Positions 1 through 22,326 of a stretch of 64,000 bases of DNA are shown here, piece after piece; position 1 is the first letter of the stretch; every line of letters begins with the position of its first letter. Origin of the DNA: Bacteroidota bacterium. GTDB lineage: Bacteria; Bacteroidota; Bacteroidia; Bacteroidales; Prolixibacteraceae. The position numbers were made by a program, and so were the translations under genes. Location: assembly GCA_023251455.1 (NCBI GenBank), contig JAHEYT010000045.1, positions 1 to 64,000 on the forward strand, read 5' to 3'. The notes beneath the pieces were generated by a model. That model searched no databases. It had not been told where the DNA came from and saw only the letters and a list, made by a program, of their open reading frames with translations.

Positions 1-141
1 TCCTGCCAGGCTGGTCAAAAAGATGATTCTTTTTATGCGACCACCGACTTTCGTGATTGTACCTGCTTTTGCAACGATCAATAACGATTGATTCTGCATT
101 GTTTCCTGAACATCATTTGGAGTTACTTCTGTACTTTTCAT
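1..141 (-). CDS. N-terminal part of an unidentified small protein (cut by window edge)
   Basis: An ATG at 139-141 on the minus strand opens a reading frame of 47 codons that runs off the window start. It begins MKSTEVTPNDVQETMQ, then has a V/I/A-rich stretch and a basic segment (KVGGRIKR) leading into a hydrophobic segment, which suggests a small membrane-associated protein. I do not recognise the family. A full copy of the regional composite promoter (181-248) lies just upstream, so the gene is probably a member of the same regulon. The start was chosen because it is the only ATG between the promoter and the open frame. Confidence 0.6.
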   Translation of the reverse strand, partial: MKSTEVTPNDVQETMQNQSLLIVAKAGTITKVGGRIKRIIFLTSLAG

Positions 142-180
142 GATAAATTCTTTTGACTGTGAATGAGTTATCACATAATT

Positions 181-248
181 CAAAGTTGGTGACTTTAATT
201 TGTTGAAGCGTTACACAATTTTTATTAAAAGTTACATCATTCGTACAT
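181..248 (-). promoter_or_regulatory. Regulon promoter copy 1
   Basis: On the + strand: CAAAGTTG (181-188), 22 bp, TTACACAA (211-218), 13 bp, then TTACATCATTCGTACAT (232-248). Read on the minus strand the activator half-sites come first and the CAACTTTG box sits next to the start of the CDS ending at 141. It matches the other copies in spacing exactly. Confidence 0.8.
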
Positions 249-304
249 CAACTGGGTTTCAACGATTAGTTGGATACAGTTTTGGTAAAAAATGGCGCCA
301 GCAG

Positions 305-1639
305 TTATGTCTTATTTGCGTATGGAATTGTGAAAATAAAACTTGAACCAATGCCAAGCTCCGAATCAACATGAATGGTACCGCCCAGCTTTTCGACCAG
401 GGCTTTTGAAATTGACAATCCCAAACCATTTCCACTATTTAATACTCCGTTTGCTGCTTTGGCCTGAGTAAAATGTTCAAAAACAATTACCTGGTCTTTC
501 TGAGCAATACCAATACCATGATCTTTTACATAGAATTCAATAAAATTTGCTTTCGTTTTATATCCAAATTCAATTTCACCTTCTTTGGTAAATTTTATGG
601 CATTATTCAGCAGGTTACAGAATATTTGCTTGATCCGGTTTCCGTCTGTTTTAATTTGAGCCAAATTATCTGGGCGATCGGTAAACAATCTCAATTTCAG
701 TTTTTTAGTACCACCAATTTTTTTGTAGATTAATAATAATTCATTCATTAAATTGTTGATGTCAACGTTTTCTTTAATAATTGAAAATTGGCCTGCTTCG
801 ATTTTTGAAATATCAACGATGTCGCTTATAATTGACAAAAGCTGTTGACTGCTTGCACGGATAATTTGAATATATCTGTCAAACTCTTTTTGTGATAATC
901 CAGGTTGCAAAAGAAAATCTGAAAATCCAATAATTGCATTCATAGGAGTACGAATTTCGTGGCTCATATTTGCCAGAAAAGCCGATTTAAGCTGGTCCGA
1001 CTCTTCAGCCTTAACCTTGGCGATAATCAAATCATTATTGATATGCTGAATTCGATTTATGCTGTTGCTCAATTCGTCGTTGAGAACTGCATATTCTTTA
1101 TTCAGATTGCTGTAATTCGAGTTTTGTTCTTTTAGGTTTTGTTCGCTTTGGATCAATGCATTCTCAGCTTTCTTTCGTTTGGTAATATCCCTGATATTGC
1201 ATTGAATGACTTTAGACTCGTTTTCCAGGTAAACATTACTTATAAATTCAACTTCCACGATGTGCCCGTTTCGTCGTTTTATGGGCATGTCTTCAAAACG
1301 GATATATCCGTTTATTTTCAGTTCGATAAACGCCTGTTCCGATTCTTCTTTATTACTGAAAAGTCCGATTTCCCATAGCTTTTTTCCTATGACTTCATTC
1401 AATGGATGATCTATGATATTTACAATAAACGGGTTCGCTTCCAGGATGTTCCCGGTTTCGAAATCGAGTATCAGTATGCCGTCTTTAGCTGTCTCGAATA
1501 ATCGGCGATATCGTATCTCCGATTCTTTTAGCTTTTTGTCAAGTTGTATAGCTGTATTTTTGTCTGATGTTTTTTTTGTACTGATATCTCCCGAAGATAC
1601 TGTAACTTGTTTATTATTTTTTGAAGCTGAGTTGTCCAT
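305..1639 (-). CDS. PAS-domain sensor histidine kinase
   Basis: A 444-aa cytoplasmic sensor kinase with no membrane segment visible. Residues ~40-155 are a PAS domain (RYRRLFETAKDGILILD, ending with the PAC-type DITKRKKAE). Residues ~160-215 form a coiled coil. The HisKA motif FLANMSHEIRTPMNAIIGF contains the phospho-acceptor His227, and the HATPase_c domain occupies ~320-440 (NNAIKF N-box, GIGIA, GNGLGLS). No receiver domain is attached, so it must phosphorylate a separate regulator; none is adjacent. It lies 20 bp downstream of a CsbD-like gene, so the two are probably co-transcribed. The sensed signal is unknown; a soluble PAS domain suggests an internal redox, ligand or energy cue. Confidence 0.93.
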   Translation of the reverse strand: MDNSASKNNKQVTVSSGDISTKKTSDKNTAIQLDKKLKESEIRYRRLFETAKDGILILDFETGNILEANPFIVNIIDHPLNEVIGKKLWEIGLFSNKEESEQAFIELKINGYIRFEDMPIKRRNGHIVEVEFISNVYLENESKVIQCNIRDITKRKKAENALIQSEQNLKEQNSNYSNLNKEYAVLNDELSNSINRIQHINNDLIIAKVKAEESDQLKSAFLANMSHEIRTPMNAIIGFSDFLLQPGLSQKEFDRYIQIIRASSQQLLSIISDIVDISKIEAGQFSIIKENVDINNLMNELLLIYKKIGGTKKLKLRLFTDRPDNLAQIKTDGNRIKQIFCNLLNNAIKFTKEGEIEFGYKTKANFIEFYVKDHGIGIAQKDQVIVFEHFTQAKAANGVLNSGNGLGLSISKALVEKLGGTIHVDSELGIGSSFIFTIPYANKT

Positions 1640-1659
1640 ACCATTGAATGTTAATTCGG

Positions 1660-1842
1660 TTAAAGTGCCTCTATTATCTTGGCAAGTTCTAGTTTGGATA
1701 CTCCCAGTTTATATTCCAAAGCTTCCATCATTTCTTTTTCCTTGCCTTCATAGAAGTTTAAGTCCTGATCGGTAATACTTGCATATTTTTGTTTGATTTT
1801 TTCTTTCTTCTCATTCCAGTATCCCAAGACGATTGTTTCCAT
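1660..1842 (-). CDS. CsbD-like stress protein 1
   Basis: A 60-aa charged protein (METIVLGYWNEKKEKIKQKY...) with the CsbD-like pattern W-N-x-K-K-x-K-I/L-K-Q-K-[YF]-A, D-L-x-F/Y-x-E-G-K, and a C-terminal K-L-G helix. CsbD proteins are abundant general-stress proteins of unknown biochemical role. A start at 1869 is possible but adds nine residues absent from the paralogues at 10719 and 11220, so the internal ATG at 1842 is preferred. It leads a likely two-gene unit with the PAS kinase. A degenerate copy of the regional promoter lies upstream. Confidence 0.85.
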   Translation of the reverse strand: METIVLGYWNEKKEKIKQKYASITDQDLNFYEGKEKEMMEALEYKLGVSKLELAKIIEAL

Positions 1843-1879
1843 GGCGATATTTTTATGGTTAGGGAACATTTACTATGAA

Positions 1880-1947
1880 TGCAATAAACTGAATTTTAAT
1901 TTTTTAGGGTTATATAATTCTTTGAAAAATTTACATAATTCCTGCAT
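1880..1947 (-). promoter_or_regulatory. Regulon promoter copy 2 (degenerate)
   Basis: Half-sites are TTATATAA (1910-1917) and TTACATAATTCCTGCAT (1931-1947), with the same 21-bp offset and the ATTCC-T-CAT ending seen in copies 4 and 6. The -7 box expected at 1880-1887 is not recognisable. It stands between the DUF6496 relic and CsbD 1. Confidence 0.5.
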
Positions 1948-1987
1948 TTTGATGGATTTAATTCTCATTTGTTTTATGCCTCTCCGA

Positions 1988-2174
1988 TTAAGTTTTTTCC
2001 TTCGGAACCTTTAGTCCTGTTTCGCGCGCTTCGCTTATACCAATGGCTATAGCCTGTTCGTGGCTTTTTACAATTCCACCTTTACCGCCTTTGCCTGATC
2101 TTAATTTTCAATGCTTGAATTCATGCATGACCTCTTCAATTTTATCCTGTACTTTTTTTTGAATATTTTGCCAT
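1988..2174 (-). pseudogene. DUF6496-type gene with two disabling lesions
   Basis: Translated with one frame correction, the minus strand reads MAKYSKK / VQDKIEEVMHEFKH stop KLRSGKGGKGGIVKSHEQ, then an AIAIGISEAR-type segment ending KVPKEKT. This is the usual full extent of the short DUF6496 family (conserved VMHEFK, LKSGKGGKVK and AIAIGLSEARKKG motifs). Two lesions are visible. A run of eight A (2153-2160 on the minus strand) puts the start codon out of frame by one base. A TGA stands where the family normally has the glycine of HGKL, consistent with GGA to TGA. The gene begins 2 bp after the stop of the 81-aa ORF, so it was once in that operon. A sequencing error could explain the homopolymer lesion but not easily the TGA. 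Confidence 0.8.
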
Positions 2175-2176
2175 AA

Positions 2177-2422
2177 TCAGTAGTCATTAAAAATTGGTTG
2201 TTCTTCATCAATCCGGGTTGGATCATTTATTCCCGGTTCATTTATCCCCGGTTCTGGGCTGTTGTGGTCGGGATTTTCATCAGGTGGTTCCGGAATAGTT
2301 GGATCGTCAGGAATCGGTTTCCCCGGTCCTTTTTGTGGATCTTCACTTTGTTTTCCTGCAAGAGGTTGATTTGATTCATTCTCAGATTGCTGCCTGAACT
2401 GGTATTTTTGATTCGTATTCAT
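2177..2422 (-). CDS. Hypothetical proline-rich acidic protein
   Basis: An 81-aa hydrophilic protein rich in Pro, Glu, Asp and Asn, with no signal peptide or membrane segment. The middle carries P-E/D-x repeats (PDDPTIPEPPDENPDHN, then twice EPGINEPGIND-like), so it is likely disordered. I do not recognise the family. A regulon promoter copy (2462-2529) is 40 bp upstream of its ATG. The DUF6496 relic follows almost immediately, which supports it being a real, transcribed gene rather than a chance ORF. Confidence 0.6.
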   Translation of the reverse strand: MNTNQKYQFRQQSENESNQPLAGKQSEDPQKGPGKPIPDDPTIPEPPDENPDHNSPEPGINEPGINDPTRIDEEQPIFNDY

Positions 2423-2461
2423 CTTTCGTTCTTTTTGAAGTTAAGTTTGAAAACTACCAGA

Positions 2462-2529
2462 TAAAGTTGAATCAATATATAACGATAAGTATTACACGAT
2501 TTTAGGAATAAATTGTATGATTCACACAT
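2462..2529 (-). promoter_or_regulatory. Regulon promoter copy 3
   Basis: TAAAGTTG (2462-2469), 22 bp, TTACACGA (2492-2499), 13 bp, TTGTATGATTCACACAT (2513-2529). Spacing is identical to the consensus. It serves the 81-aa ORF and the DUF6496 relic. Confidence 0.72.
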
Positions 2530-2566
2530 TTTCGAAAGAGACGGAAGACAGGAGACGGAAGCATCG

Positions 2567-2595
2567 CTCCCTGAGCGCGAAGCAGTCGAAGGGAG
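2567..2595. repeat. Short GC-rich interspersed-type hairpin
   Basis: CTCCCT at 2567-2572 pairs with AGGGAG at 2590-2595 around GAGCGCGAAGCAGTCGA. The CCCTGAGCG...GTCGAAGGG pattern resembles small extragenic repeats found in many genomes. It stands out from the AT-rich flanks. No function can be assigned. Confidence 0.4.
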
Positions 2596-2642
2596 GTGGA
2601 ACAAATGTCCGTTTTTTATCGGCTATTAATAAAATGGTATTT

Positions 2643-2779
2643 AAGCCCATCCCGAAAAGTCTGAATTCAGTTTTTCAACCGGGATTTTTTAGCGACGTAG
2701 GGAAGTAACGTTGAATTTTGCTGAATTATAGAAGACTCCTTAAGTAGATTAAGGGGTTCAGACTTTTCGTTATGGGCTT
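2643..2779. repeat. 137-bp element with 23-bp inverted ends
   Basis: Positions 2643-2665 (AAGCCCATcccGAAAAGTCTGAA) are the inverted complement of 2757-2779 except for two bases in the middle. The ~90 bp between them code for nothing recognisable. It lies 25 bp beyond the stop of the GH100-like gene, so it may be a non-autonomous mobile element that now also works as a transcription end. No clear target duplication was seen. Confidence 0.55.
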
Positions 2780-2803
2780 TTGGTATTTTAAATATTATAT
2801 CGA

Positions 2804-3988: not shown

Positions 3989-4071
3989 GGCATTAATTTG
4001 TCAATTAGTTAATTAGTCAATTTACCAATTGATTTTTCATTATCGAATTGGCACATTGGCACATTTCCAAA

Positions 4072-5214: not shown

Positions 5215-5867
5215 AATACAGCTCCTTTAATATTTATCCTTCTTTTTATTTCAGAAGGGTCAGTAAATTTCCAGAATGCTTCAGCAACTGGTGTGGTTTT
5301 GGCCTCCCAACTATCTTTTTCGAAGCCATAGATTTCTGTTATTATTCTATATTTCATTTGCCAGATCGGCTGGGTAAGAGTTGTATAAACTGACGCACTT
5401 TTGACCGCTAACGGATAGTATTTTTTATTTCCATCCTCATAAGCAAATGTCCAAAGTTCACTTGCTGTTAACCGACCGGTTTGCCACAGATTCAATACTG
5501 CGCGGCTGGTCTCTTCGTGTCGCAGGTGTTTTGTATATTCTCCGCATTCGCTGTGAGTAATGATCAGATCAAATTTTCCGGAAGGCAATAAATTAAGTAT
5601 CTCTTGTTCAATAGTTTTTGTATCCAAAGGATTTTGATCAGGTCCGTCATCAAGGTCGCCCATAATTCCTTCGGCATCGTATATCTTTAAAGCTTGAAAA
5701 AACTTTGTTGAACGGTCGGTATCGTTTTTTCGGCAAAGCGAAACCACAAAAACCTTCCACGAAGGGTTGCTTAATAGTTTGCCTCCAACCCATAATGTTT
5801 CATCATCGGGATGAGCTACGATAATAGCAACTGTTTTCGTTTCTTTTTCGATCATTTTACCTGACAA
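5211..5867 (-). CDS. PIG-L / LmbE-like deacetylase
   Basis: A 218-aa protein with the PIG-L zinc-binding motif AHPDDE at ~18-23 (IIVAHPDDETLWVGGKLL) and the later metal-ligand segment ITHSECGEYTKHLRHEE near residues 105-120. The family removes the N-acetyl group from GlcNAc-type sugars (GlcNAc-PI, the mycothiol and bacillithiol precursors, chito-oligosaccharides). Here it overlaps both neighbours (11 bp with the gene upstream, 4 bp with the GT4), so all three are made together. Bacillithiol synthesis (BshA/B/C) was considered, but no BshC is present and the GT4 lacks obvious BshA features; the substrate is left open. Confidence 0.88.
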   Translation of the reverse strand: MSGKMIEKETKTVAIIVAHPDDETLWVGGKLLSNPSWKVFVVSLCRKNDTDRSTKFFQALKIYDAEGIMGDLDDGPDQNPLDTKTIEQEILNLLPSGKFDLIITHSECGEYTKHLRHEETSRAVLNLWQTGRLTASELWTFAYEDGNKKYYPLAVKSASVYTTLTQPIWQMKYRIITEIYGFEKDSWEAKTTPVAEAFWKFTDPSEIKRRINIKGAVL

Positions 5868-6267
5868 CTCTGAGGTGATTGGCAGATGGATTGGTGAATT
5901 CTTTTAAAAATTCATGTTGCTCGCTTTCTGTCATTTTATCGGCAGGCTGAACTACGATTTTAATTTTTTCAAAGAGGTGGTTGCCCTTCAGGCTATTTAC
6001 CAATTCTTCTTTGGCCTCAGTAGGCCCAAAAAGAATCACTTCCTCGTAATTTAAAATTGCATCGCTCAGTTTCTTGTAATAGGTAGCGAGTTGACTACGC
6101 TCTTTATTGAGTCTATGACTTTCATCTTTATAATACAAATCTTCTTCTTTTACATGAAGTTTAGGCTTTGATTCGATCGTTTCCGTCATGAAATTCCCAT
6201 TTGAAAATTCAGACAATTGGGCTTTTGAATGATCCATCCAAATGCCAAGTATTCTTTTTGTTTTCAT
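5857..6267 (-). CDS. Conserved hypothetical protein, possible eRF1 domain-3/baeRF-like fold
   Basis: A 136-aa protein beginning MKTKRILGIWMDHSKAQL, with a central KERSQLATYYKKLSDAI helix and the strand-loop EVILFGPTEAKEELVNSL. It closes with a helix containing DKMTESEQHEFLKEF. The order (actin-like first strand, then a helix before an ILFGP strand) resembles the eRF1 domain-3/baeRF families; this is an inference from pattern only. It is the first gene after regulon promoter copy 4 and overlaps the PIG-L start by 11 bp. Similar small proteins in Bacteroidota stress loci are uncharacterised as far as I know. Confidence 0.75.
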   Translation of the reverse strand: MKTKRILGIWMDHSKAQLSEFSNGNFMTETIESKPKLHVKEEDLYYKDESHRLNKERSQLATYYKKLSDAILNYEEVILFGPTEAKEELVNSLKGNHLFEKIKIVVQPADKMTESEQHEFLKEFTNPSANHLRVVR

Positions 6268-6347
6268 TTTGTATCTGTTTAGTATTACTACTTTTAATCC
6301 ATTCTCAGTGATTTTTCGTATTGCCTTATGTCATGGAAATGAAGTTG

Positions 6348-6415
6348 AAAAGATAAAAACTGACCAATAAAGAAGCCTTACACAATTTTTTGAAAAATTT
6401 ATATAATTCCTACAT
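6348..6415 (-). promoter_or_regulatory. Regulon promoter copy 4
   Basis: TTACACAA at 6378-6385 and TTATATAATTCCTACAT at 6399-6415, offset 21 bp. At the expected -7 position (6348-6355) the minus strand reads TATCTTTT, close to the TAnnTTTG consensus. It drives the eRF1-like/PIG-L/GT4/hydrolase series. Confidence 0.72.
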
Positions 6416-6438
6416 TGAAAATGTTCAGGTTTATTGTC

Positions 6439-10718: not shown

Positions 10719-10904
10719 TTAAAGCCCTTCAATTATTTTTTGCATTTCTTCTTTTGTTTTGCCAAGTTTGATCTGGAGTCGTCTGATCATTGCATCTTTT
10801 TTGCCTTCGGCAAACATCAGGTCATTTTCTGTCAGTTCGGCAAATTTCTGTTTGAGTTTGCCTTTGGTTTTGTTCCAGTTTCCGGTAACTTCTGTATTAT
10901 TCAT
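10719..10904 (-). CDS. CsbD-like stress protein 2
   Basis: A 61-aa protein, the most typical CsbD member of the three (NWNKTKGKLKQKFAELTENDL, EGKKDAMIRRLQIKLGKT). It is the first gene behind promoter copy 5 and leads a seven-gene minus-strand series (CsbD, RskA-like, lmo0937, YtxH, holin-like, 120-aa, GT4 fusion) with gaps of 5-112 bp. Confidence 0.93.
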   Translation of the reverse strand: MNNTEVTGNWNKTKGKLKQKFAELTENDLMFAEGKKDAMIRRLQIKLGKTKEEMQKIIEGL

Positions 10905-10945: not shown

Positions 10946-11013
10946 CAAAGGTCACCCATCTATTGTCTGAAAGCATTACACAATTCCGGCTAAGAGTTAC
11001 ATCTTTCACACAT
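10946..11013 (-). promoter_or_regulatory. Regulon promoter copy 5
   Basis: CAAAGGTC (10946-10953), 22 bp, TTACACAA (10976-10983), 13 bp, TTACATCTTTCACACAT (10997-11013). It drives the long CsbD 2 operon. Confidence 0.82.
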
Positions 11014-11219: not shown

Positions 11220-11405
11220 TTAAAACGTTGATATAATATTCTCAAGTTCATCTTCGGTTTGGCCAATTCTGAATTGATGTCGGCCAAACATTTCTTCTCT
11301 TTTGCCCTCTTCAAACAACAGATCGTCATTGGTCAGGCTTGCAAATTTTTGTTTGAGTCTGCCCTTTTCCTCGTATAAATTTACTTTTAGTTCTAAAGTT
11401 TCCAT
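11220..11405 (-). CDS. CsbD-like stress protein 3
   Basis: A 61-aa protein (METLELKVNLYEEKGRLKQKFASLT) with the CsbD pattern but with the usual W-N pair replaced by L-Y. The conserved D-D-L-L-F-E-E-G-K-R block is kept. The ATG at 11405 was chosen because it aligns with the other two CsbD starts; the upstream ATG at 11444 lies inside the -7 box of promoter copy 6 and is unlikely to be used. It is monocistronic, with its own promoter and terminator. Confidence 0.85.
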   Translation of the reverse strand: METLELKVNLYEEKGRLKQKFASLTNDDLLFEEGKREEMFGRHQFRIGQTEDELENIISTF

Positions 11406-11441: not shown

Positions 11442-11509
11442 CAAAGTTGAGGCTTCTGGTACAACTATTTGTTACACAATTTTGAAGGAAATTTATATTA
11501 TTCCTGCAT
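11442..11509 (-). promoter_or_regulatory. Regulon promoter copy 6
   Basis: CAAAGTTG (11442-11449), 22 bp, TTACACAA (11472-11479), 13 bp, TTATATTATTCCTGCAT (11493-11509). It drives CsbD 3. Confidence 0.8.
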
Positions 11510-14004: not shown

Positions 14005-14388
14005 TTAAAGAACAAGAATCAGGATCAGTATAAGAACTAAAACTCCACCAACCCCAATGTAAGTTCCGTTGTGATTATGCCTGTAACCTTGATCTGTTTT
14101 GAGTGTTAAGTCAAGATCTCTATTACGTCGATTGTTAAATCGGCCTTTGTGCCGACCCTGATCATTCACAAGTGGGTTTGCTTCTTTTAATTTTTCTTTA
14201 TTATCGGAAGTACTTAATGCAGTTAATTCAATCGGTTTAATTTCGTTTAATTGGTCAGTGCTACTAACTATTTCGGCCGATGTTGTTGCCGTTTGAACTG
14301 CCTCAGCATTTGTGGCGGCTTTAATTTGGCTGGGAATAGCCGACAACATAAAGCATGTTGCTAAAATAAAAGGAGATAATCTTTTCAT
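14005..14388 (-). CDS. Hypothetical exported protein with a C-terminal membrane anchor
   Basis: A 127-aa protein: signal peptide (LSPFILATCFMLSAIPSQIKA), a Thr/Ser/Glu-rich middle, a basic segment around RHKGRFNNRRNRD, and a very hydrophobic C-terminal tail (YIGVGGVLVLILILILVL). The family was not recognised. The ATG at 14388 gives a standard signal peptide; one at 14421 would add a polar leader and lie next to the -7 box. It is first behind promoter copy 7 and likely leads the unit with the two small membrane proteins. Confidence 0.72.
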   Translation of the reverse strand: MKRLSPFILATCFMLSAIPSQIKAATNAEAVQTATTSAEIVSSTDQLNEIKPIELTALSTSDNKEKLKEANPLVNDQGRHKGRFNNRRNRDLDLTLKTDQGYRHNHNGTYIGVGGVLVLILILILVL

Positions 14389-14425
14389 GAGGAGATTTTT
14401 GTTTGGTGAAACTATTTTCACTATT

Positions 14426-14493
14426 TAAAGATCGCAAACCCGCCACTTGTTTGCGTTACAGAATTTATGAAAAAAGTTACATCATTCACACAT
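14426..14493 (-). promoter_or_regulatory. Regulon promoter copy 7
   Basis: TAAAGATC (14426-14433), 22 bp, TTACAGAA (14456-14463), 13 bp, TTACATCATTCACACAT (14477-14493). It drives the exported protein and the two small membrane genes. Confidence 0.8.
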
Positions 14494-14507
14494 CAGAAAA
14501 CACGAAA

Positions 14508-14618
14508 AAGCCCTGCCATTTTTGAATTAAGCAGGGCTTGAAAATAGAACTAAACCAAAAAACTATTTGTCCACACGTTTTATAATATCTGTTCCTGAAA
14601 TAATTGCATACAATATTC
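14508..14618 (-). ncRNA. Candidate ~110-nt regulon small RNA
   Basis: Promoter copy 8 (14625-14692) has no protein gene downstream. From the expected start near 14618 the minus strand runs ~80 nt of AU-rich sequence and then a perfect GC-rich stem, AAGCCCTGC (14531-14539, + strand GCAGGGCTT) with GCAGGGCTT (14508-14516), followed by TTTTTC: a standard terminator. The next promoter (copy 7) starts only 15 bp later. The only ORF inside is about 9 codons. The size, own promoter and own terminator are those of a trans-acting small RNA. The evidence is structural only; no known RNA family was recognised. Confidence 0.6.
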
Positions 14619-14624
14619 ACACAT

Positions 14625-14692
14625 CAAAGGTGAGTTAATTTTTTGCTGATAACCTTACACAATTCTAACCCTGATTTACATCATTCCTACAT
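14625..14692 (-). promoter_or_regulatory. Regulon promoter copy 8 (no protein gene behind it)
   Basis: CAAAGGTG (14625-14632), 22 bp, TTACACAA (14655-14662), 13 bp, TTACATCATTCCTACAT (14676-14692): a complete consensus copy. It is followed on the minus strand only by the candidate small RNA. Confidence 0.8.
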
Positions 14693-15127: not shown

Positions 15128-15160
15128 AAGAAGAGGCTAACCTCAAGGCAGCCTCTTCTT
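15128..15160 (-). terminator. Terminator of ice-binding gene 1
   Basis: AAGAAGAGGCT (15128-15138) pairs with AGCCTCTTCTT (15150-15160) over 11 bp, 24 bp beyond the stop codon. The same loop sequence (taacctca) occurs in the terminator of the paralogue at 16162. Confidence 0.78.
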
Positions 15161-15183
15161 CGATGTATAATTTTCTTGTGCGT

Positions 15184-15987
15184 TTATGGTTGTGTAACCG
15201 CATTCTGCTGAAGAGTTACTGCTGTTTGTGCCAGCATTCTTCCGTTTATTGATGCGCCAGTCTGCAAGTTAATTCCAGTTTGACTCAAGATGTTTCCTTC
15301 AAAATGACTGGTTGTTCCCAGGGTTACAGCACCAGAAGTTTGCCAGAAAATATTTTTCGCCAATGCCCCACCTGCAAGCGTAATTCTTACTGCTGAACTC
15401 ATTTTAAGTGTACCGGCAATCTGGAATATCCAAACATCGGTTGAACTACCCGAAATGGTAATATTTGTTGGGATTATAACAGCAGTAGTAAATTTATAAA
15501 GGCCTGCTTTAAGCGTTTTGCCTCCAATATTACCAGCACCTAAATTCATGAAGTTAGGGTTTGATCGTCCAGCTGCATCGGTATATGCAGTTTGCATATT
15601 TTTTACAGCGGTTGTTAACCTGCTTGCGTTTGTTACCTTACATGCAGGACCGGCAGCATCGACAGAGTATATTGTTCCGGTTACTTCATCACATTTCAAC
15701 AGAATTGCGGCACCAGTTATCGGACTTGATCCAACATCGCCTTTCACTGTAGATTTATAAACATCGGTGATTCCCGTTTTTGACAAAATCACAAATTCAC
15801 CTGCAAGGCCCATATTTACGGTTTTCAATACAGAACCTTTGGGTAATTTAGCTGCTTTTAAAGCAGCAGCATCTGTAGTCGGAGTCATCATCTCCGGTGA
15901 ATTATACGCATCCATACTTTTACTGCAACCGGAAACTAATCCGGCCAATAAGATTGCAACCACTGGGATAATTCTAAAAAGTTTCAT
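15184..15987 (-). CDS. DUF3494 ice-binding lipoprotein 1
   Basis: A 267-aa protein. Lipoprotein signal MKLFRIIPVVAILLAGLVSGC gives Cys21. The mature part is a DUF3494 beta-solenoid (GDVGSSPITGAA; NLGAGNIGGKTLKAGLYKF; DVWIFQIAGTLKMSS; KNIFWQTSGAVTLGTTSHFEGNILS; QTGASINGRMLAQTAVTL). The family binds ice crystals or adheres to ice; as a lipoprotein it would face the cell surface or periplasm. The ATG at 15987 was chosen over 16020, which lies by the -7 box. Promoter copy 9 is upstream, so it belongs to the stress regulon. DUF3494 genes are often spread by horizontal transfer; ice activity is not proved by sequence. Confidence 0.93.
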   Translation of the reverse strand: MKLFRIIPVVAILLAGLVSGCSKSMDAYNSPEMMTPTTDAAALKAAKLPKGSVLKTVNMGLAGEFVILSKTGITDVYKSTVKGDVGSSPITGAAILLKCDEVTGTIYSVDAAGPACKVTNASRLTTAVKNMQTAYTDAAGRSNPNFMNLGAGNIGGKTLKAGLYKFTTAVIIPTNITISGSSTDVWIFQIAGTLKMSSAVRITLAGGALAKNIFWQTSGAVTLGTTSHFEGNILSQTGINLQTGASINGRMLAQTAVTLQQNAVTQP

Positions 15988-16024
15988 CGTAATAAGTATT
16001 AAGTGTGACAACAATGTCACGAAT

Positions 16025-16092
16025 CAAAGGTGAGGCCTTTAATTCGTGACATTGTTGCATAACTCTGTGTAAGAATTGCATCATTCACACAT
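16025..16092 (-). promoter_or_regulatory. Regulon promoter copy 9 (TTGCA subtype)
   Basis: CAAAGGTG (16025-16032), 22 bp, TTGCATAA (16055-16062), 13 bp, TTGCATCATTCACACAT (16076-16092). Both half-sites have G where other copies have A. It drives ice-binding gene 1. Confidence 0.78.
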
Positions 16093-16161
16093 TCGCCAAA
16101 CCCGGCGGGCTTGCATGTGGTTAGAAAAGCCCATAAATAAGCATATGATTCTGAAGTAAAC

Positions 16162-16193
16162 AAAAAAAGAGGCTAACCTCACGGTTGCCTCTT
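16162..16193 (-). terminator. Terminator of ice-binding gene 2
   Basis: AAGAGGC (16167-16173) pairs with GCCTCTT (16187-16193). On the minus strand the stem is followed by a run of seven T. It lies 26 bp after the stop of the gene at 16219. Confidence 0.82.
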
Positions 16194-16218
16194 CCTGAAT
16201 TTTGAATTTTTTGGATGT

Positions 16219-17283
16219 TTATGGTTGAGTAACCGTATTCATTTGCAAAATTACGGCAGTCTGAGCCAAGGCCCGTCCATTCAGCGAAGCACCTGTGTTA
16301 AGAGTAATGCTGGTTTTCGACAGAATAATTCCTTCGAAATGAGAAGTTGAACCTAGACTCACGTTCCCGGCAACCTGCCAGAAAATATTCTTGGCCTGTG
16401 CTCCCCCGATTAGGGTAACTTTTGCAGCAGAACTCACCGTTAGATTTCCGGCGATCTGGAAAATCCAAACATCGTTTGCTCCGCCATTCAGAACTAGATC
16501 TGAGGGTATTGTAACGTTGTTTGTCCATTTATAAAGTCCGGAGGCAAGTGTTTTTCCACCAATATTTCCGGTGCCCAGTTCAATGTAGTCTGGTGAAGTG
16601 CGTCCGGCAGCATCGTTGTAGCCTGTATTCATATTATTTACTGCAGTAGTCAGGTTAACTGGAGTTGGAGCCACCATGTCAGCAGCAAAAATTTTCCCGG
16701 TAACTTGTGCAGCGATAGCATATCCGGTTGCATTTGTCAAGGCAAAACCTGTGATATAAGATGTAGCGGCAGGACTCAGGCCCAAATCGCCGGTAACGAC
16801 AGATGTTGCCGTATTGTTGATTGCTGTTTTAGCCAAAATCACATAATTTGCGGCTGTTCCAAGTTGTACCGCTGCCAGGGTTGATGCAGTACCTCCGGTT
16901 GTGAAACTCCAGACAGCATTAGAGGCAAGCGAACTGCCGGCTAAGGTCTTTGCGCCAGTAGTCAAAGTAGCAACGTAAACAGTGCCAGCACTTAGGCTAC
17001 CTAAAGGCGTAAATGTTGCTGTTTTGTCGGCATAAGATACTGTACCCGGAACTGCTGTTGTTCCATTCATTAAGGTAAATGTCAAAGTGTTTACAGTTAA
17101 TGGATCCATTGCTTCATTGAAGGTAAATGAAACCCCATTATTACGCGAAACATCTGTAGCATTGTTTGTCGGGTTCGAGGAAGTTCCTGTTGGATAGGTA
17201 AAGGTTTCTTCATCCTTTTTACATCCGGAAACAAATACAGCCAATAGCACTGCCATGACTGGAATTATATTTACTAGTTTCAT
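16219..17283 (-). CDS. Ig-like plus DUF3494 ice-binding lipoprotein 2
   Basis: A 354-aa protein. Lipoprotein signal MKLVNIIPVMAVLLAVFVSGC gives Cys21, almost identical to the paralogue. Residues ~32-130 are a bacterial Ig-like (SbsA/Big_5) domain (NNATDVSRNNGVSFTFNEAMD, VWSFTT). Residues ~140-354 are DUF3494 (GDLGLSPAATSYITGF, DVWIFQIAGNLTVSS, KNIFWQVAGNVSLGSTSHFEG). The Ig module probably lifts the ice-binding solenoid from the membrane. The gene and its promoter share layout and flanking sequence with gene 1, so they look like a tandem duplication with domain gain or loss. Confidence 0.93.
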   Translation of the reverse strand: MKLVNIIPVMAVLLAVFVSGCKKDEETFTYPTGTSSNPTNNATDVSRNNGVSFTFNEAMDPLTVNTLTFTLMNGTTAVPGTVSYADKTATFTPLGSLSAGTVYVATLTTGAKTLAGSSLASNAVWSFTTGGTASTLAAVQLGTAANYVILAKTAINNTATSVVTGDLGLSPAATSYITGFALTNATGYAIAAQVTGKIFAADMVAPTPVNLTTAVNNMNTGYNDAAGRTSPDYIELGTGNIGGKTLASGLYKWTNNVTIPSDLVLNGGANDVWIFQIAGNLTVSSAAKVTLIGGAQAKNIFWQVAGNVSLGSTSHFEGIILSKTSITLNTGASLNGRALAQTAVILQMNTVTQP

Positions 17284-17320
17284 TGTATTCATATTTAGTT
17301 GTGACTTCATTGTCACGAAT

Positions 17321-17388
17321 CAAAGGTGAGGCCTTTAATTCAGGGAAAAGTTGCAAAACTATGTGAAAGAGTTGCAACTTTCACACAT
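17321..17388 (-). promoter_or_regulatory. Regulon promoter copy 10 (TTGCA subtype)
   Basis: CAAAGGTG (17321-17328), 22 bp, TTGCAAAA (17351-17358), 13 bp, TTGCAACTTTCACACAT (17372-17388). It drives ice-binding gene 2. The next ~20 bp (CGCCAAACCCGGCGGGCTT) recur behind copy 9. Confidence 0.78.
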
Positions 17389-17419
17389 TCGCCAAACCCG
17401 GCGGGCTTCTAAACAACTG

Positions 17420-17640
17420 AAGTTTTTGTCGAGGAGTGGGGGCTCAGAGCAGGACATCCCCAGCTCCGAGTGAGAAAAAGGGCTCTCAGGGCGACAAATT
17501 CCTCACTCTGAATGGGGGCCCACCCAGCTCTTAGAACCAAATTCCTCGCTCGGAGCCTCTAGCTTGACTCTTTGAGCGACAAATTCCTCGCTCGGGATAG
17601 GGGTCTCCCTGCTCTGAGAGGGGTGTTTGAGTCTTTTAGC
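17420..17640. repeat. GC-rich degenerate repeat tract
   Basis: A ~220-bp non-coding tract much richer in G+C than its surroundings. Loose units recur every ~35-50 bp: GGGGGCTCAGAGCAGG, CCCCAGCTCCGAGTGAG, AAATTCCTCACTCTGAATGG, AAATTCCTCGCTCGGAGCC, AAATTCCTCGCTCGGGATAG. The units pair with each other (CTCNGAG), so the RNA would be strongly folded. No ORF and no family recognised. Confidence 0.5.
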
Positions 17641-17700
17641 CGGGTATTTTTCACTTTGAACAGGGTACTTGTCGTACCAAACGATCCGTTTTATAGCTAA

Positions 17701-17735
17701 TACTGACGGGCTGACTTCGAGTCACCCCGTCAGTA
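17701..17735 (-). terminator. Hairpin behind the response-regulator gene
   Basis: TACTGACGGG (17701-17710) pairs perfectly with CCCGTCAGTA (17726-17735), and inner TGAC/GTCA extend the stem. It lies 49 bp after the stop of the response regulator and probably ends the AraC 1/kinase/regulator operon, although the T-run is weak. Confidence 0.6.
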
Positions 17736-17783
17736 AAACGCTTTCCCAATTAGAATTGACTTTTTCCTGTTAATTAAGGGTAT

Positions 17784-18215
17784 TTACATCCGCTCCATGT
17801 ACCAGTTCAATTGTTTTTCGAGGATTTGGGTTTCCAGAATGGTGGTAATGATTTTTTTCAGGCGCATAAAGGCAGTCTCGCTTTTTACCACATAGTCAAA
17901 AGCCTTGTGGTGCATACAGTTGATAGCCACATCAATTTTATCCTGAGATGATAGCATGACCACCGGGATTTCGGGATTGAAAGCTTTGATCTGATCCAGA
18001 GTGTCAATTCCGTTGATTGCATCGCGGTCGACGCCATCGAGGTAATAATCCAGTACAATTACATCAGGTTGGTGCGATAAATTTTCGATGCACAGTTCAC
18101 CGGTTGAAAAGGTTTCAATATCAAAATCAGCATGTTCCATAAATTCGATTTCCAATAGTTTCAGAAATACAGCATCGTCGTCTACCAGGAATAGTTTTAT
18201 TTTTTCGTTGTTCAT
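17784..18215 (-). CDS. Single-domain response regulator
   Basis: A 143-aa protein (MNNEKIKLFLVDDDAVFLKLL). The receiver domain has the acidic pair DDD near the N-terminus, the phospho-acceptor Asp in VIVLDYYLDG, the Ser in VVMLSSQD and the Lys in YVVKSE. There is no DNA-binding or enzyme output domain; the last ~20 residues are a helical tail. The ATG overlaps the kinase stop by 4 bp (TCAT on the + strand), so it is translationally coupled to the hybrid kinase and is probably its partner. Such stand-alone receivers relay phosphate or act by protein contact. Confidence 0.92.
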   Translation of the reverse strand: MNNEKIKLFLVDDDAVFLKLLEIEFMEHADFDIETFSTGELCIENLSHQPDVIVLDYYLDGVDRDAINGIDTLDQIKAFNPEIPVVMLSSQDKIDVAINCMHHKAFDYVVKSETAFMRLKKIITTILETQILEKQLNWYMERM

Positions 18216-20989
18216 GAGATCGTTTTTTTTATCCGGTTTAATTCTACTCTTAATTCGTCGCAAGCCTGCGTGCAAATGTTTTCGAGTTGCAATACCATTT
18301 CCGATATTCCTTCTGTTTGTTTTTGCATACTTGCGTATTCCTGAATTTTTTTGGCCATGTTTTCAAAATCGATGTTCATTCCCATGATTGAGAACGATGG
18401 GATCATTTTATGCACGGAAGCATGCAATTGATTCCAATCCTGGTCGATCAGGCTCTGTTTCATGGTCGAAATTAGTGGCGGGGTTTGCTCCAGGTAAGCT
18501 GAAATCATTTCCATCATTAGTTTCGGATGCGATTTGGTACGTTGATTTAAATAATTCAAATCGATGCAACTATTTATGGTTATTTCATCAACTTCTTCCA
18601 TTTCCGTAACACTTAGATTCCTGAGTTCAGTTTTTTTCACAAACCCAACTATTTTACTGTATAAAACGTCTTCGTCAACTGGTTTGGCGATGTAGTCATT
18701 CATTCCAACAGCCTTACATTTGGCTAAATCAACTGTAGTTACATCGGCAGTTAAAGCGATGATCGGAACATCCAGCTTCATGATGTTACGGATGTAATCG
18801 GTGGCTTCAAACCCATTCATTTCGGGCATTTGCAAATCCATTAAAACAACATCATACGTTTTAAGCCGAAGCTTTTCGATGGCAATTTTCCCATTATCGG
18901 CAATATCGCGTTCAAACCCAAAATCATCGAGCAGAGTTTTCATCAGTAACTGGTTCAGGATTATATCTTCAACAACCAATACTTTTATGTTTGCAAGTTC
19001 AGAGTCCAATTCAATAATTTCTGATTCCAATTCGGCATCAGCAGTGGTTTTCAGAAAACTTAGTTCAAAGCTAAAGGTTGAACCTTCATCAACTACACTC
19101 TTTACATGTATGGTTCCTCCCTGCGATTCGACTAATTGTTTAACGATGGCCAATCCTAGTCCGGTTCCTCCGTATAAGCGTGAAGTTCCGCTCGATGCCT
19201 GCTGAAAGTTCTCAAATATCTTGCTGATTTTAGTTTCGGGTATTCCGATTCCGGTATCTGTAACCGAAAATTGAATGGTTGCTTTCTTCTCGTCTTCGCT
19301 CAGCAAACTTACGTTGACAATAATCTTCCCTTTGGCCGTAAATTTTACCGCATTGCTCATCAGGTTTAAAATAATCTGGTGCAAGCGCACCGGGTCGCCA
19401 ACCAAAACGTCAGGAATATTGGTGTCGTATTGCTTCACAAGCTTTAAATTTTTTTCCTGAATTTTTGTTTCGAACAGGTGAAGCATGGCTGCAATGGAGG
19501 CTGAAAGTTTGAATGGTGTCTTTTCGAAAATCATTTTTCCGGCATCCACTTTGGCCAAATCGAGTATGTCGTTGATGAGCACAATTAATGCATCGCCACT
19601 CATCTTAATGGCTTGTAAATATTCTTTTTGCTTGGCAGTAAATTCGGTTTTTAGCAAAACCTTTGTGAATCCGACGATCGCATTCATTGGAGTACGAATC
19701 TCATGACTCATGTTCGACAGAAATTGCTGTTTGGCTTTCACTGCATTTTCGGCAGTCACAGTTGCTTTTTCAGCTTTTACTTTGGCCTCTTCGGCAATAT
19801 CAACCGCCAGTTCGGCAAATACAATGGCTTCAGTCAATTCGGTTGCAATACGTTTCTGTTCAGTTACATCACGGGCCACAATCACCACTCCTAATACATT
19901 CTCCTGATCGTCTTTGTAAACCGATCCATTAAATAATACATCTGTCAGTTTTCCATCGGCATGGCGAAGGGTCAGCGGCGAATCTGCAACCGATCCTTTG
20001 GCAAACACTTCCAAATAAACTTCACGTGCTTTTTGCGGTTCGGTAAAATAGTCGAGGAAGTTGGTTCCTTTCAGCTTCTGGCGTGCAATTCCGGTAATGT
20101 TTACCAAAGCCTCATTCATGTCGGTAATTTTGCCTAAAGGACTTATCACAATTAGCGGATCGCGACTTGCTTCAATTAAACTGAGCGAATACTGAGAGGC
20201 TAATTTTAACGACTCGCTGATTGCTTCAAGTTCAATATTGGCGATTTCGCCTTTTTCTTTTTCCCTGGTTTGATAAACAAGTTCGTTGTCAGACAGGATT
20301 AATTCTTTAGCCCGTTTCCCTTTTTCATGGTTCTGAAAAGCCAGTTCTTTGTCGGCTATGATTAACTCGTCGGCCCTTTTTTTCTTTTCCCTGTTTTGGA
20401 ATGCCAGTTCTTTATTGGCAATTTGCAACTCGTTTGCCCGTTTTTCTTTTTCTTCGTTCTGAAACCGTAATTCTTTATTGGCTACGATCAGTTCGGCTGC
20501 ACGCTTCTCTTTCTCCTTGTTCTGAAATACCAGTTCTTTGTTGGCAAGGATCAACTCTTTGGCCCGCTTTTCCTTTTCATCGTTTTGAAAAGCAAGCTCT
20601 TTGTTGGCAATTTGTAATTCGAGCGCCCATTTTTGATTGGCGATGTTTCGGGCAACTAAAACGGCACCAAGTGCATTCCCATTCGTGTCTTTATAAACCG
20701 ATCCGTTGAATAATACGTCGGTCAGCTTGCCGTCCAGATGACGAAACGTTAGCGGAAAATCAGTTATCGATCCATATTTAAAGACTTCCAGATATATTTC
20801 GCGGGCCTTCTGCGGCTCGGTGAAATAATCGTAGAAATTTGTTCCTAAAAGCTCACTGCGTCCGATCCCGGTAATGTTTACCTTGGCCTGATTCATATCC
20901 GTTATTTTACCTTCAGTACTGATGGTAATTAAGGGATCCAGGCTGGCTTCCATTAAACTGCTGGCGTATTGATTATTGTGCGACTTCAT
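18212..20989 (-). CDS. Hybrid sensor kinase with two PAS domains, a repeat coiled coil, REC and Hpt
   Basis: A 925-aa soluble protein. PAS 1 ~8-120; six 21-residue coiled-coil repeats 125-250; PAS 2 ~263-382, very close in sequence to PAS 1 (NITGI, DYFTEPQKARE and VLFNGSVYKD recur); helical linker; HisKA with His429 (SHEIRTPMNAI); HATPase_c ~535-645 (NAVKF, DTGIGIP, GGTGLGLAI); receiver ~668-785 with Asp718 (VVLMDLQMPEMNG); Hpt ~810-920 with His860. All phosphorelay parts are present in one chain, and the separate receiver downstream is a natural last step. It starts 15 bp after the AraC 1 stop, so promoter copy 11 should drive all three genes. Confidence 0.95.
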   Translation of the reverse strand: MKSHNNQYASSLMEASLDPLITISTEGKITDMNQAKVNITGIGRSELLGTNFYDYFTEPQKAREIYLEVFKYGSITDFPLTFRHLDGKLTDVLFNGSVYKDTNGNALGAVLVARNIANQKWALELQIANKELAFQNDEKEKRAKELILANKELVFQNKEKEKRAAELIVANKELRFQNEEKEKRANELQIANKELAFQNREKKKRADELIIADKELAFQNHEKGKRAKELILSDNELVYQTREKEKGEIANIELEAISESLKLASQYSLSLIEASRDPLIVISPLGKITDMNEALVNITGIARQKLKGTNFLDYFTEPQKAREVYLEVFAKGSVADSPLTLRHADGKLTDVLFNGSVYKDDQENVLGVVIVARDVTEQKRIATELTEAIVFAELAVDIAEEAKVKAEKATVTAENAVKAKQQFLSNMSHEIRTPMNAIVGFTKVLLKTEFTAKQKEYLQAIKMSGDALIVLINDILDLAKVDAGKMIFEKTPFKLSASIAAMLHLFETKIQEKNLKLVKQYDTNIPDVLVGDPVRLHQIILNLMSNAVKFTAKGKIIVNVSLLSEDEKKATIQFSVTDTGIGIPETKISKIFENFQQASSGTSRLYGGTGLGLAIVKQLVESQGGTIHVKSVVDEGSTFSFELSFLKTTADAELESEIIELDSELANIKVLVVEDIILNQLLMKTLLDDFGFERDIADNGKIAIEKLRLKTYDVVLMDLQMPEMNGFEATDYIRNIMKLDVPIIALTADVTTVDLAKCKAVGMNDYIAKPVDEDVLYSKIVGFVKKTELRNLSVTEMEEVDEITINSCIDLNYLNQRTKSHPKLMMEMISAYLEQTPPLISTMKQSLIDQDWNQLHASVHKMIPSFSIMGMNIDFENMAKKIQEYASMQKQTEGISEMVLQLENICTQACDELRVELNRIKKTIS
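20240..20617 (-). repeat. Six coding repeats of 63 bp in the hybrid kinase
   Basis: Residues 125-250 are six copies of a 21-residue unit of the form L-x-x-A-N-K-E-L-x-F-Q-N-x-E-K-x-K-R-A-x-E. Twenty-one residues are three heptads, so the helix phase stays in register whatever the copy number. The last copy is the most diverged. The segment separates the two PAS domains. Confidence 0.93.
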
Positions 20990-21004
20990 TGGTTTTTTCT
21001 GTTT

Positions 21005-21604
21005 TTATTTTTTTACGCCATTGTTATTCTCTACAATTAAGCTTCCTATATCTTCAATCGGACTTCTCCTTTTGTCTTTCAATTGCTTAAAATGAGAAGG
21101 CGAAAGCCCTGTTGCTTTTTTAAACTGATTGGATAAGTGGGCAACGCTGCTGTAGTTCATCCGCCATGCGATTTCTGTAATATTTTCTTCGCCATAGATA
21201 ATCAGCTCTTTTATCCGCTCAATTTTATGAGAGATAATGAACTGCTCAATGGTCGTTCCTTGTACTTCAGAAAATAAGTTGGCCAGGTAAGTATAGTCGT
21301 GGTTCAGTTTTTCGCTTAGAAACACCGAGAAGTTTGTCTTGATTAGCCCATCTGTATGATGCACCATTTCGATAATGGTGTTCTTAATTCGTTCAATTAA
21401 AACGGCCCGCTTGTCGTCCATTAACTCAAATCCGGCATCAAATAAGGCTGTTTTTACCAGGTCTCGCCTGTCGGGAGAGAGGCTCTCCATGATTTCAACT
21501 TCACCTAAATCAACCAGGATAAAATGTAAGCCAAGTTTTTTCAACTCCTCTTTCACCGCAATTTTGCAGCGGTTGCTTACCATGTATTTGATGTATAGTT
21601 TCAA
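21005..21604 (-). CDS. AraC-type regulator 1 with an HMA-like N-terminal domain
   Basis: A 199-aa protein. Residues 1-~75 look like a ferredoxin-fold, heavy-metal-associated-like domain (KLYIKYMVSNRCKIAVKEELKKLGLH, then VDLGEVEIME), but the usual C-x-x-C is S10-x-x-C13. Residues ~85-185 are the AraC double helix-turn-helix (TIEQFIISHKIERIKELII; ITEIAWRMNYSSVAHLSNQFKKATGLSPSHFK). Promoter copy 11 is directly upstream, so it is likely autoregulated. It is first in an operon with the hybrid kinase and response regulator. The repeated promoter with 21-bp half-site spacing is the kind of site AraC proteins bind, so this protein or its paralogue is the best candidate regulator. Confidence 0.92.
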   Translation of the reverse strand: MKLYIKYMVSNRCKIAVKEELKKLGLHFILVDLGEVEIMESLSPDRRDLVKTALFDAGFELMDDKRAVLIERIKNTIIEMVHHTDGLIKTNFSVFLSEKLNHDYTYLANLFSEVQGTTIEQFIISHKIERIKELIIYGEENITEIAWRMNYSSVAHLSNQFKKATGLSPSHFKQLKDKRRSPIEDIGSLIVENNNGVKK

Positions 21605-21633
21605 TTATTTCAATTATTTATAACAAGTAGGTT

Positions 21634-21700
21634 CAAAGGTGCACTTAATTCTAACCTGAATGTTACACAACTCTGTGAATAAGTTACACAATTCACACAT
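21634..21700 (-). promoter_or_regulatory. Regulon promoter copy 11 (before AraC 1)
   Basis: CAAAGGTG (21634-21641), 21 bp, TTACACAA (21663-21670), 13 bp, TTACACAATTCACACAT (21684-21700). The two half-sites are a perfect direct repeat of TTACACAA. The -7 box is one base closer than in other copies. Confidence 0.8.
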
Positions 21701-21720
21701 TTCTGCATAAATTGAGCATT

Positions 21721-21942
21721 TCAGGCTTTAGCTTTTTTGTCGCTTAGCACAATCACGATACCTCCAACGAGCAACACGATGCCAACAATAGGCGACCATT
21801 GCACAGGGTGATTCTTTTCTGCATTAATTTTAATCGGGCCTAAATCAACTACTTTTTCAGTTGTCACATAATTGAATCCGGTGTAAATGATCATTACTAT
21901 ACCGATTATACTCAGAGCAATACCTAATGTTTTTAATCGCAT
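21721..21942 (-). CDS. Small two-helix membrane protein
   Basis: A 73-aa protein with two membrane segments (TLGIALSIIGIVMIIYTGFNYV and WSPIVGIVLLVGGIVIVL) joined by a polar loop (TTEKVVDLGPIKINAEKNHPVQ) and ending in a lysine-rich tail. It resembles small DUF3185-like stress membrane proteins; the family is not certain. It follows the second lmo0937 peptide by 129 bp containing a 16-bp perfect hairpin, so the two may share promoter copy 12. Confidence 0.8.
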   Translation of the reverse strand: MRLKTLGIALSIIGIVMIIYTGFNYVTTEKVVDLGPIKINAEKNHPVQWSPIVGIVLLVGGIVIVLSDKKAKA

Positions 21943-22008
21943 GTTTTTAATTTTATGAATGTGTTTATTGAAAAGAAATGGTTTTTCTCAGGCGAATAGA
22001 GATATCGC

Positions 22009-22044
22009 GAATTTCCTGTTGGTGTTTTCACCAACAGGAAATTC
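22009..22044 (-). terminator. Perfect 16-bp hairpin between two small membrane genes
   Basis: GAATTTCCTGTTGGTG (22009-22024), loop TTTT, then its exact complement (22029-22044). No T-run follows on the minus strand, so it may be an RNA-stabilising or processing hairpin rather than a full terminator. Confidence 0.55.
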
Positions 22045-22071
22045 GGGCGGAATATTGGAAAGCGATGACAT

Positions 22072-22227
22072 TTAGAGCACTCTTCTGCCCTGGATTATTT
22101 GAAAGATGACTGCAATGACAGCGATGACCAAAAGAATATGAATAATTCCTCCGGTACCGTAACCCACAAAACCAACTAACCAGGCAATAACCAAAATTAC
22201 TGCAACCAAATAAAGTAAATTTCCCAT
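22072..22227 (-). CDS. lmo0937-family small membrane protein 2
   Basis: A 51-aa protein (MGNLLYLVAVILVIAWLVGF, GYGTGG turn, a second helix, QIIQGRRVL). It is nearly identical to the one at 10074-10229 and has the same length. It is too short for common ORF cut-offs. Promoter copy 12 lies 32 bp upstream of its ATG. Two copies in one regulon point to a dose effect or to partner-specific forms. Confidence 0.9.
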   Translation of the reverse strand: MGNLLYLVAVILVIAWLVGFVGYGTGGIIHILLVIAVIAVIFQIIQGRRVL

Positions 22228-22258
22228 GATCGTTAATTTTAAATGTATTTTAACTAAT

Positions 22259-22326
22259 CAAAGGTTGTCACATTTAAGCTTGCTGGTGTTACACAATTTT
22301 CGGAAAGACTTACATTATTCACACAT
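22259..22326 (-). promoter_or_regulatory. Regulon promoter copy 12 (overlaps the end of AraC 2)
   Basis: CAAAGGTT (22259-22266), 22 bp, TTACACAA (22289-22296), 13 bp, TTACATTATTCACACAT (22310-22326). The outer half-site covers the last codons of AraC 2. It drives the lmo0937 2 gene. It is the last copy seen in the window. Confidence 0.8.

Follow-up and report, generated by a model that had tools for sequence, protein, structure and literature searches.

A repeated composite promoter site in a Bacteroidota genome and AraC-type paralogues with a copper-chaperone-like domain as its likely regulators

We consider here a composite promoter site that is repeated in a stretch of 64,000 nucleotides from a Bacteroidota bacterium of the Prolixibacteraceae (GenBank assembly GCA_023251455.1, contig JAHEYT010000045.1, positions 1 to 64,000), the whole of which we call the window. 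It is highly probable, in our judgement, that the sites in the window belong to a larger regulon of about 30 promoters, in which activators with an HMA-like and an AraC-type domain would act on sigma-A promoters, the activator family being apparently derived from copper regulators. The likely regulators, strongly indicated by the sequence, are AraC-type paralogues whose N-terminal domain has the copper-chaperone fold, and two of them are encoded in the window itself. In the proposed mechanism the HMA-like/AraC proteins would bind both repeats of the site, which at 21 bp, or two helical turns, would lie on the same face of the DNA. The bound proteins would then recruit the ordinary sigma-A polymerase in the manner of class II AraC/XylS activators, with the downstream half-site ending 21-22 bp before a housekeeping-type -7 box and substituting for the -33 element.

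An earlier note on this DNA, made by a model from the letters, had described 12 same-strand copies of the site with half-sites 21 bp apart, and a third box at 22 bp in nine copies, at 21 bp in one, weak in one and absent in one. A check of the stated positions finds all 12 and gives the same counts. The copies are all on the minus strand. In 12 of 12 the start of the second element is exactly 21 bp past that of the first half-site. Read on that strand, a spacer of 22 bp leads to a -7-like box in the nine clear copies; the box is at 21 bp for the site at 21663, is weak (TATCTTTT) for the site at 6378, and was looked for at 1910, where none is recognisable. For scanning, we use a weight matrix of 38 positions trained on 24 sites of the same genome, which score 35-54 with it. 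The 12 window sites belong to this training set, and the scan therefore informs on the absence of other sites and not on the presence of these. At every threshold tried from 8 to 20 the matrix has 12 minus-strand and 0 plus-strand matches in the window; the other 41 kb therefore contain no further site, as the note had also said. The sites and what lies behind them are as follows.

211 to 248, minus strand: site 1, with -7 box CAACTTTG at 188-181; the gene runs off the contig start
1910 to 1947, minus strand: site 2, before the small open reading frame (ORF) 1660-1869; without recognisable -7 box
2492 to 2529, minus strand: site 3, before ORF 2177-2422 (unknown)
6378 to 6415, minus strand: site 4, before ORF 5857-6267 (no family match) and further ORFs; box TATCTTTT
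10976 to 11013, minus strand: site 5, before the CsbD gene 10719-10904
11472 to 11509, minus strand: site 6, before the CsbD-like gene 11220-11399 (36.2 bits; Pfam cut-off 40)
14456 to 14493, minus strand: site 7, before ORF 14005-14421 (no family match)
14655 to 14692, minus strand: site 8, followed by a short stretch that contains no convincing ORF and closes with a hairpin resembling an intrinsic terminator
16055 to 16092, minus strand: site 9, before the ice-binding-like gene 15184-16020
17351 to 17388, minus strand: site 10, before the ice-binding-like gene 16219-17316
21663 to 21700, minus strand: site 11, before the AraC-type gene 21005-21604 (putative autoregulation)
22289 to 22326, minus strand: site 12, before the DUF5670 gene 22072-22227; adjoins the end of the AraC-type gene 22319-22897

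The gene behind site 1 is truncated, as the window and the contig begin with the same base.

A genome-wide scan gives 31 matches (25 + 6) in the 5.56-Mb genome for a degenerate pattern with at most 3 mismatches, against 2 (1 + 1) for the reversed pattern. Outside the window they are found on contigs C82, C44 and C68, and singly or in pairs on C89, C100, C9, C102 and C90. Placement was examined for the 29 matrix matches in the own-genome stretches, with C90 left out and with simple longest-ORF calls as gene models. The sites are not found at random or inside genes as often as before genes: 24 of the 29 are intergenic, and for 26 of the 29 a gene on the same strand starts no more than 250 bp away, compared with 12.4% and 13.3% of 17,600 random positions. 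The same placement is seen in 80 loci containing a related AraC gene (the best 80 of 518 candidate stretches, from records titled Bacteroidales, Flavobacterium, Lutibacter, Mucilaginibacter, Emticicia, Niastella and others), where 115 of 135 sites are intergenic and 123 have such a gene start. Many same-strand copies on one contig could point to chance or to a spreading repeat element, a reading to which we give next to no probability; it is refuted by the placement, by the reversed-pattern controls and by the conservation of the spacing in relatives, and a chance origin of the sites is excluded. A separate observation concerns two opposite-strand sites of the same genome, C82:8782 and C82:8826, which start exactly 44 bp apart between OmpA-like and CsbD-like ORFs. 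This divergent pair recurs with the same 44 bp at G011:C1:220694/220738, G009:C16:1703/1747 and G019:C32:5473/5517, and is thus conserved across four genomes.

We now turn to the architecture of the promoter. In the direction of transcription the order is ATGTGTGAATGATGTAA, 13 bp, TTGTGTAA, 22 bp, and a CACCTTTG-like box. When aligned by content, GAATGATGTAA and RAATTGTGTAA are 21 bp apart; the half-sites are RAATNNTRTAA-like direct repeats, and the upstream one is extended to ATGTGTGAATGATGTAA. The Bacteroidota housekeeping promoter consists of TAnnTTTG with a -33 TTTG (PMC7366714 and PMC9723704), and its -7 box is placed at -12 to -5 (PMC9723704). With the box taken at -12 to -5, the composite site spans about -72 to -35, the half-sites are at about -45 to -35 and -66 to -56, and the proximal half-site therefore occupies the place of the -33 element. 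The promoters here share the -7 box type of the housekeeping promoter and differ from it in having a regulator half-site where the -33 element would be. The box pattern A..TTT[GA] stands at one offset in 21 of the 29 own sites; in the 80 loci it is found at offset 22-23 for 124 of the 135 sites. The reversed box gives no comparable offset peak. The spacing is thus near-fixed in related genomes as well, the test that the note had suggested, and the positions agree with the note's own reading, in which TAnnTTTG promoters have the activator sites at about -40 and -60. In sequence this is the class II layout, with a half-site abutting the -35 region and a spacer of 21-22 bp to the -7 box.

This arrangement bears on whether the site could be the recognition sequence of an alternative sigma factor of the extracytoplasmic function (ECF) type. 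Long conserved elements with fixed spacing would suit such a factor, and an ORF 287 bp behind the site on contig C100 reads ECF-like by eye, but conserved elements from about -72 to -35 are too long and too far upstream for a sigma -35 element. We hold this to be very improbable, and reject an alternative sigma factor on the grounds that those 124 of 135 sites have a -7 box like that of housekeeping promoters.

The activators proposed instead are AraC-type proteins. They are listed here with their neighbours and with the putative targets in the window for which a family is assigned.

21005 to 21604, minus strand: AraC-type regulator 1, the proposed activator, with HMA-like N-domain (SxxC) and AraC DNA-binding domain (Pfam HTH_18 4.2e-16; AlphaFold2, Foldseek)
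22319 to 22897, minus strand: AraC-type regulator 2, paralogue (SxxC), 64% identical to regulator 1 (Pfam HTH_18 1.2e-15)
18212 to 20989, minus strand: hybrid PAS histidine kinase, directly after regulator 1 (Pfam)
17784 to 18275, minus strand: stand-alone response-regulator receiver, after the kinase (Pfam Response_reg)
10719 to 10904, minus strand: putative CsbD target (Pfam 6.6e-13)
15184 to 16020, minus strand: putative ice-binding-like (PF11999) target (Pfam)
16219 to 17316, minus strand: putative ice-binding-like (PF11999) plus Big_5 target (Pfam)
22072 to 22227, minus strand: putative DUF5670 target, named lmo0937-like in the earlier note (Pfam 4e-13)

Three further AraC matches are encoded elsewhere in the genome, two on C44 and one on C9. 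Both window proteins have the AraC DNA-binding domain with its two helix-turn-helix motifs (Pfam HTH_18; Foldseek). The AlphaFold2 model (mean predicted local distance difference test, pLDDT, of 85; predicted TM-score, pTM, of 0.73) consists of an N-terminal beta-alpha-beta-beta-alpha-beta domain, a long helix and the AraC DNA-binding domain. With Foldseek the C-part resembles AraT, MarA and AraC, and the N-part, which in the model has the ferredoxin-like fold of HMA domains, resembles the copper chaperone Atx1 (TMt 0.76, E 0.018), GolB (0.75, E 0.064) and a Cu(I) metallochaperone, at weak E-values. The CxxC metal ligand pair is not present in the two window proteins, which have MVSNRC and MVSMRC in its place. 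Among 140 family rows 115 are SxxC and 25 are CxxC, the search expression having picked up no rows with other residues at these positions. The activator-driven regulon on TAnnTTTG promoters that the note had put forward is supported, and these paralogues are added to it as the putative regulator.

The CxxC members provide a parallel to the window. AraC paralogues with CxxC (MVCNRC and similar) directly precede copA in the same genome (C9) and in 10 of 20 further paralogue stretches, where copA was identified by reading the ORF start, without a family search, and where L186, L189, L190, L193 and L197 were left out of the check as the search expression gave no AraC ORF in them. In 11 of 11 AraC-copA gaps the half-sites are 21 bp apart and a 22-bp spacer leads to TANNTTTG (TAnnTTTG), by a half-site rule that was written after the data had been viewed. 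The observed score is never reached in 300 shuffles per gap, and the self-similarity of the gaps peaks at lag 21 (0.50), then at 23 (0.44). The architecture is found in all of these gaps and is therefore tied to the AraC family, not to stress genes alone. As CxxC paralogues stand beside copA and share the promoter architecture, the family looks derived from copper-responsive regulators, and the CxxC paralogues appear to be an undescribed copper regulator family of Bacteroidota. A quick tree built from 140 AraC proteins accounts for the CxxC/SxxC label with a single change, though the support of that branch is low (56) and several long branches are flagged. The direction of this change is drawn from HMA biochemistry, by which CxxC would be ancestral and SxxC derived. 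The paralogue of the same genome, at C9:81320-81889, is followed directly by a copper-ATPase-like ORF that has the same promoter architecture.

The sites are also found upstream of the AraC genes themselves. At score 14, 44 of the 80 loci have a site no more than 350 bp ahead of the matched AraC gene, and in 29 of the 44 it falls between -84 and -98. When the score is raised to 20, the AraC strand has 124 matches and the opposite strand 11, with 0 for the reversed and 0 for the complemented control. Cultured relatives with the locus include Sunxiuqinia indica (L105) and Flavobacterium terrigena (L149). A more general test, which applies the same half-site rule, asks for two RAATNNTRTAA-like half-sites and a -7 box ahead of those SxxC AraC genes for which 250 bp or more of upstream sequence were available. 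The architecture is present at period 21 in 59 of 110 such genes and in 1.2% of shuffles; other periods from 17 to 25 give 1-7 genes, and the spacers peak at 21-22. Ten of 54 genes without a matrix match pass this test, six of them from Flavobacterium/Flavobacteriaceae records, in which the distal element has drifted.

In 60 of 76 cases the ORF that follows the SxxC AraC gene encodes, by motif, a histidine kinase (other AraC genes excluded; 89 downstream ORFs in total). In the window, regulator 1 is followed by the hybrid kinase at 18212-20989 and then by the receiver. Because the window branch is SxxC and a PAS histidine kinase gene is the usual neighbour, the signal probably arrives via the kinase and not via a metal. 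With a site of its own before it, the gene at 21005-21604 probably forms part of a self-amplifying loop. On C44 (L031, 4365-8621 and 10903-12380) both AraC paralogues are adjoined by ORFs that read by eye as PAS/CheB-CheR or histidine kinase, a repeated AraC-kinase pairing.

The number of motif matches goes with the presence of the AraC paralogues from genome to genome. Among 61 relatives, at least 2 motif matches (range 2 to 46) are found in 25 of 25 genomes having an AraC match at E<=1e-80 and in 2 of 36 others. In the order (295 genomes, a set that overlaps the 61 relatives), at least 3 motif matches occur in 48 of 60 genomes with AraC at E<=1e-80 and in 10 of 235 others (p 9e-34), the 1e-80 line having been drawn post hoc with the data already seen; at the search's own cut-off of 1e-20 the counts are 55 of 145 and 3 of 150 (p 1.7e-16). 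As a control for relatedness, the AraC-strong members (<=1e-75) are richer in sites in 31 of 32 mixed families, with 1 tie. Beyond the class, two genomes of the phylum (G342 and G347) have 3 and 4 strict motif matches and a best AraC match of only about 1e-41 to 1e-42.

Several observations weigh against the AraC paralogues as regulators, or against their history as drawn above, beside the two rules (the 1e-80 line and the half-site rule) that were set with the data in view. No scored site is found upstream of the AraC gene in 36 of the 80 loci. Twelve of the 60 AraC-strong order genomes have fewer than 3 motif matches, and 9 order genomes have at least 3 with an AraC match weaker than 1e-75 or none. 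In the phylum set (247 genomes, at most 1 mismatch) the motif occurs in 8 of 18 AraC-strong genomes and in 7 of 229 others, so that outside the order the strict motif is frequently drifted or missing. A relaxed 32-bp pattern, run on 12 AraC-strong genomes with few motif matches, is uninformative because its reversed controls match almost as frequently. A full-type site lies immediately downstream in seven CxxC rows, and three genomes with the CxxC type as sole AraC match (G025, G027 and G036) have 2, 8 and 2 motif matches; the motif is thus independent of the loss of the cysteine. The HMA assignment of the N-domain is a match of fold only: Pfam HMA gives no match in the window proteins at E<=0.001, and the best E, in a paralogue, is 0.12.

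Three genomes (G081, G174 and G249) have sites and no AraC match even in a second search, which is also what one would expect if another transcription factor, such as a response regulator or a CRP/FNR-type protein, bound the sites and the AraC genes were within its regulon. The AraC genes are indeed targets themselves, co-occurrence alone cannot separate a regulator from a regulated gene, and a histidine kinase and a receiver are linked to AraC. However, such a factor must follow both branches of the family, given the shared 21-bp architecture in the copA-linked gaps; the linked receiver has a receiver domain only (Pfam); and direct repeats with a 21-bp period are the pattern used by AraC-type proteins. 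We therefore think another factor improbable, and retain the AraC paralogues as the candidate activators.

The next question is what the regulon is for. The target sample contains 125 ORFs after sites (26 own, 99 from the 80 loci), AraC genes excluded; the first and longest ORF was used, and some are spurious. Pfam assigns 15 of them to the ice-binding-like family, 11 to CsbD, 5 each to OmpA, response regulator and DUF5670, 3 each to ferritin and YtxH, and 2 to MlaE; the families number 61 in total, with 25 among the matches listed. By eye, the own-genome ORFs behind sites include a patatin-like one and the ECF-sigma-like one on C100. Of the small window ORFs, two labelled CsbD-like are less firm: the one behind site 6 is under the Pfam cut-off, and ORF 1660-1869 has no Pfam match and resembles CsbD below cut-offs (NCBIfam PRK10428 E 6.9e-5, under its cut-off). 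In other phyla CsbD, Dps and YtxH belong to the stress genes, and lmo0937 is the Listeria gene that gives the DUF5670-type protein its name. From this gene content a general stress regulon is likely, and the regulon would be strongly activated.

With the regulator as proposed, the regulon might still serve metal, cold, envelope or surface-growth control and not general stress. The CxxC paralogues beside copA suit such a role, as does the ice-binding-like family, which is the commonest target family (15 of 125 ORFs). The CsbD, DUF5670, OmpA, ferritin and YtxH genes in the same sample speak for stress, however, as do the negative values of lmo0937 in the tables of a sigB-mutant study (PMC7690807), and we judge a non-stress role unlikely, though clearly less so than another factor at the sites. 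Returning to the stress regulon, we see evenly balanced chances that it extends to a Bacteroidota-wide general stress response, a counterpart of those of RpoS and SigB. It would be run by an AraC-type activator that came from a copper sensor, lost a metal-binding cysteine, became coupled to a PAS histidine kinase and is positively autoregulated.

To our knowledge, Bacteroidota have no well-described general stress response that compares with those of RpoS and SigB. The SigB regulon of Bacillus and Listeria and the RpoS regulon of E. coli have overlapping targets (CsbD, Dps/ferritin, YtxH, lmo0937-like), whereas here an activator on housekeeping promoters apparently takes the part of the alternative sigma factor. 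AraC activators at -35 are a known kind. The class II AraC/XylS activators (araBAD I1-I2, XylS-Pm) likewise have the AraC DNA-binding domain and direct half-sites about 21 bp apart, with the proximal one at or overlapping -35; the protein here differs in being small (190-200 amino acids), with an HMA-like ferredoxin-fold N-domain, and in having about 30 promoters of the Bacteroidota sigma-A type. With the copA regulators CueR, CsoR and CopY the copA-linked paralogue shares the position of its gene beside copA, and it has the CxxC, but the DNA-binding domain is AraC-type and the window branch is SxxC. Among the papers listed by a literature search that did not extend to subscription journals and preprints, none deals with this regulon, with a general stress response tied to these genes or with a Bacteroidota copA regulator of AraC type, and as far as the search reaches the HMA-AraC family, its kinase-linked SxxC branch and the stress-like Bacteroidota regulon are undescribed. 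A promoter code, a likely regulator, a probable kinase partner and about 30 target promoters are thus obtained from sequence alone, and the weight matrix can be used for annotating many genomes. The family may be a case in which a likely metal sensor turned into a sensor of another signal with its promoter geometry kept, and a single family of small regulators may run the general stress response in a large phylum.

Two minor observations concern the window. The promoter at 14655 enters about 110 nt without convincing ORF (14500-14630, minus strand), and a GCCCTGC/GCAGGGC hairpin with a T-run precedes the next promoter, which makes this stretch a candidate small RNA. A conserved small RNA is rejected, as only 4 of 23 genus genomes match, the own genome included, and the three others cover only the terminator-like part of 44-47 bases; an Rfam scan of 1-24000 at gathering thresholds gives no match. 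In the second, at 15184-17388, the neighbouring ice-binding-like genes share near-identical promoters and upstream terminator-like sequences, and possibly arose by tandem duplication.

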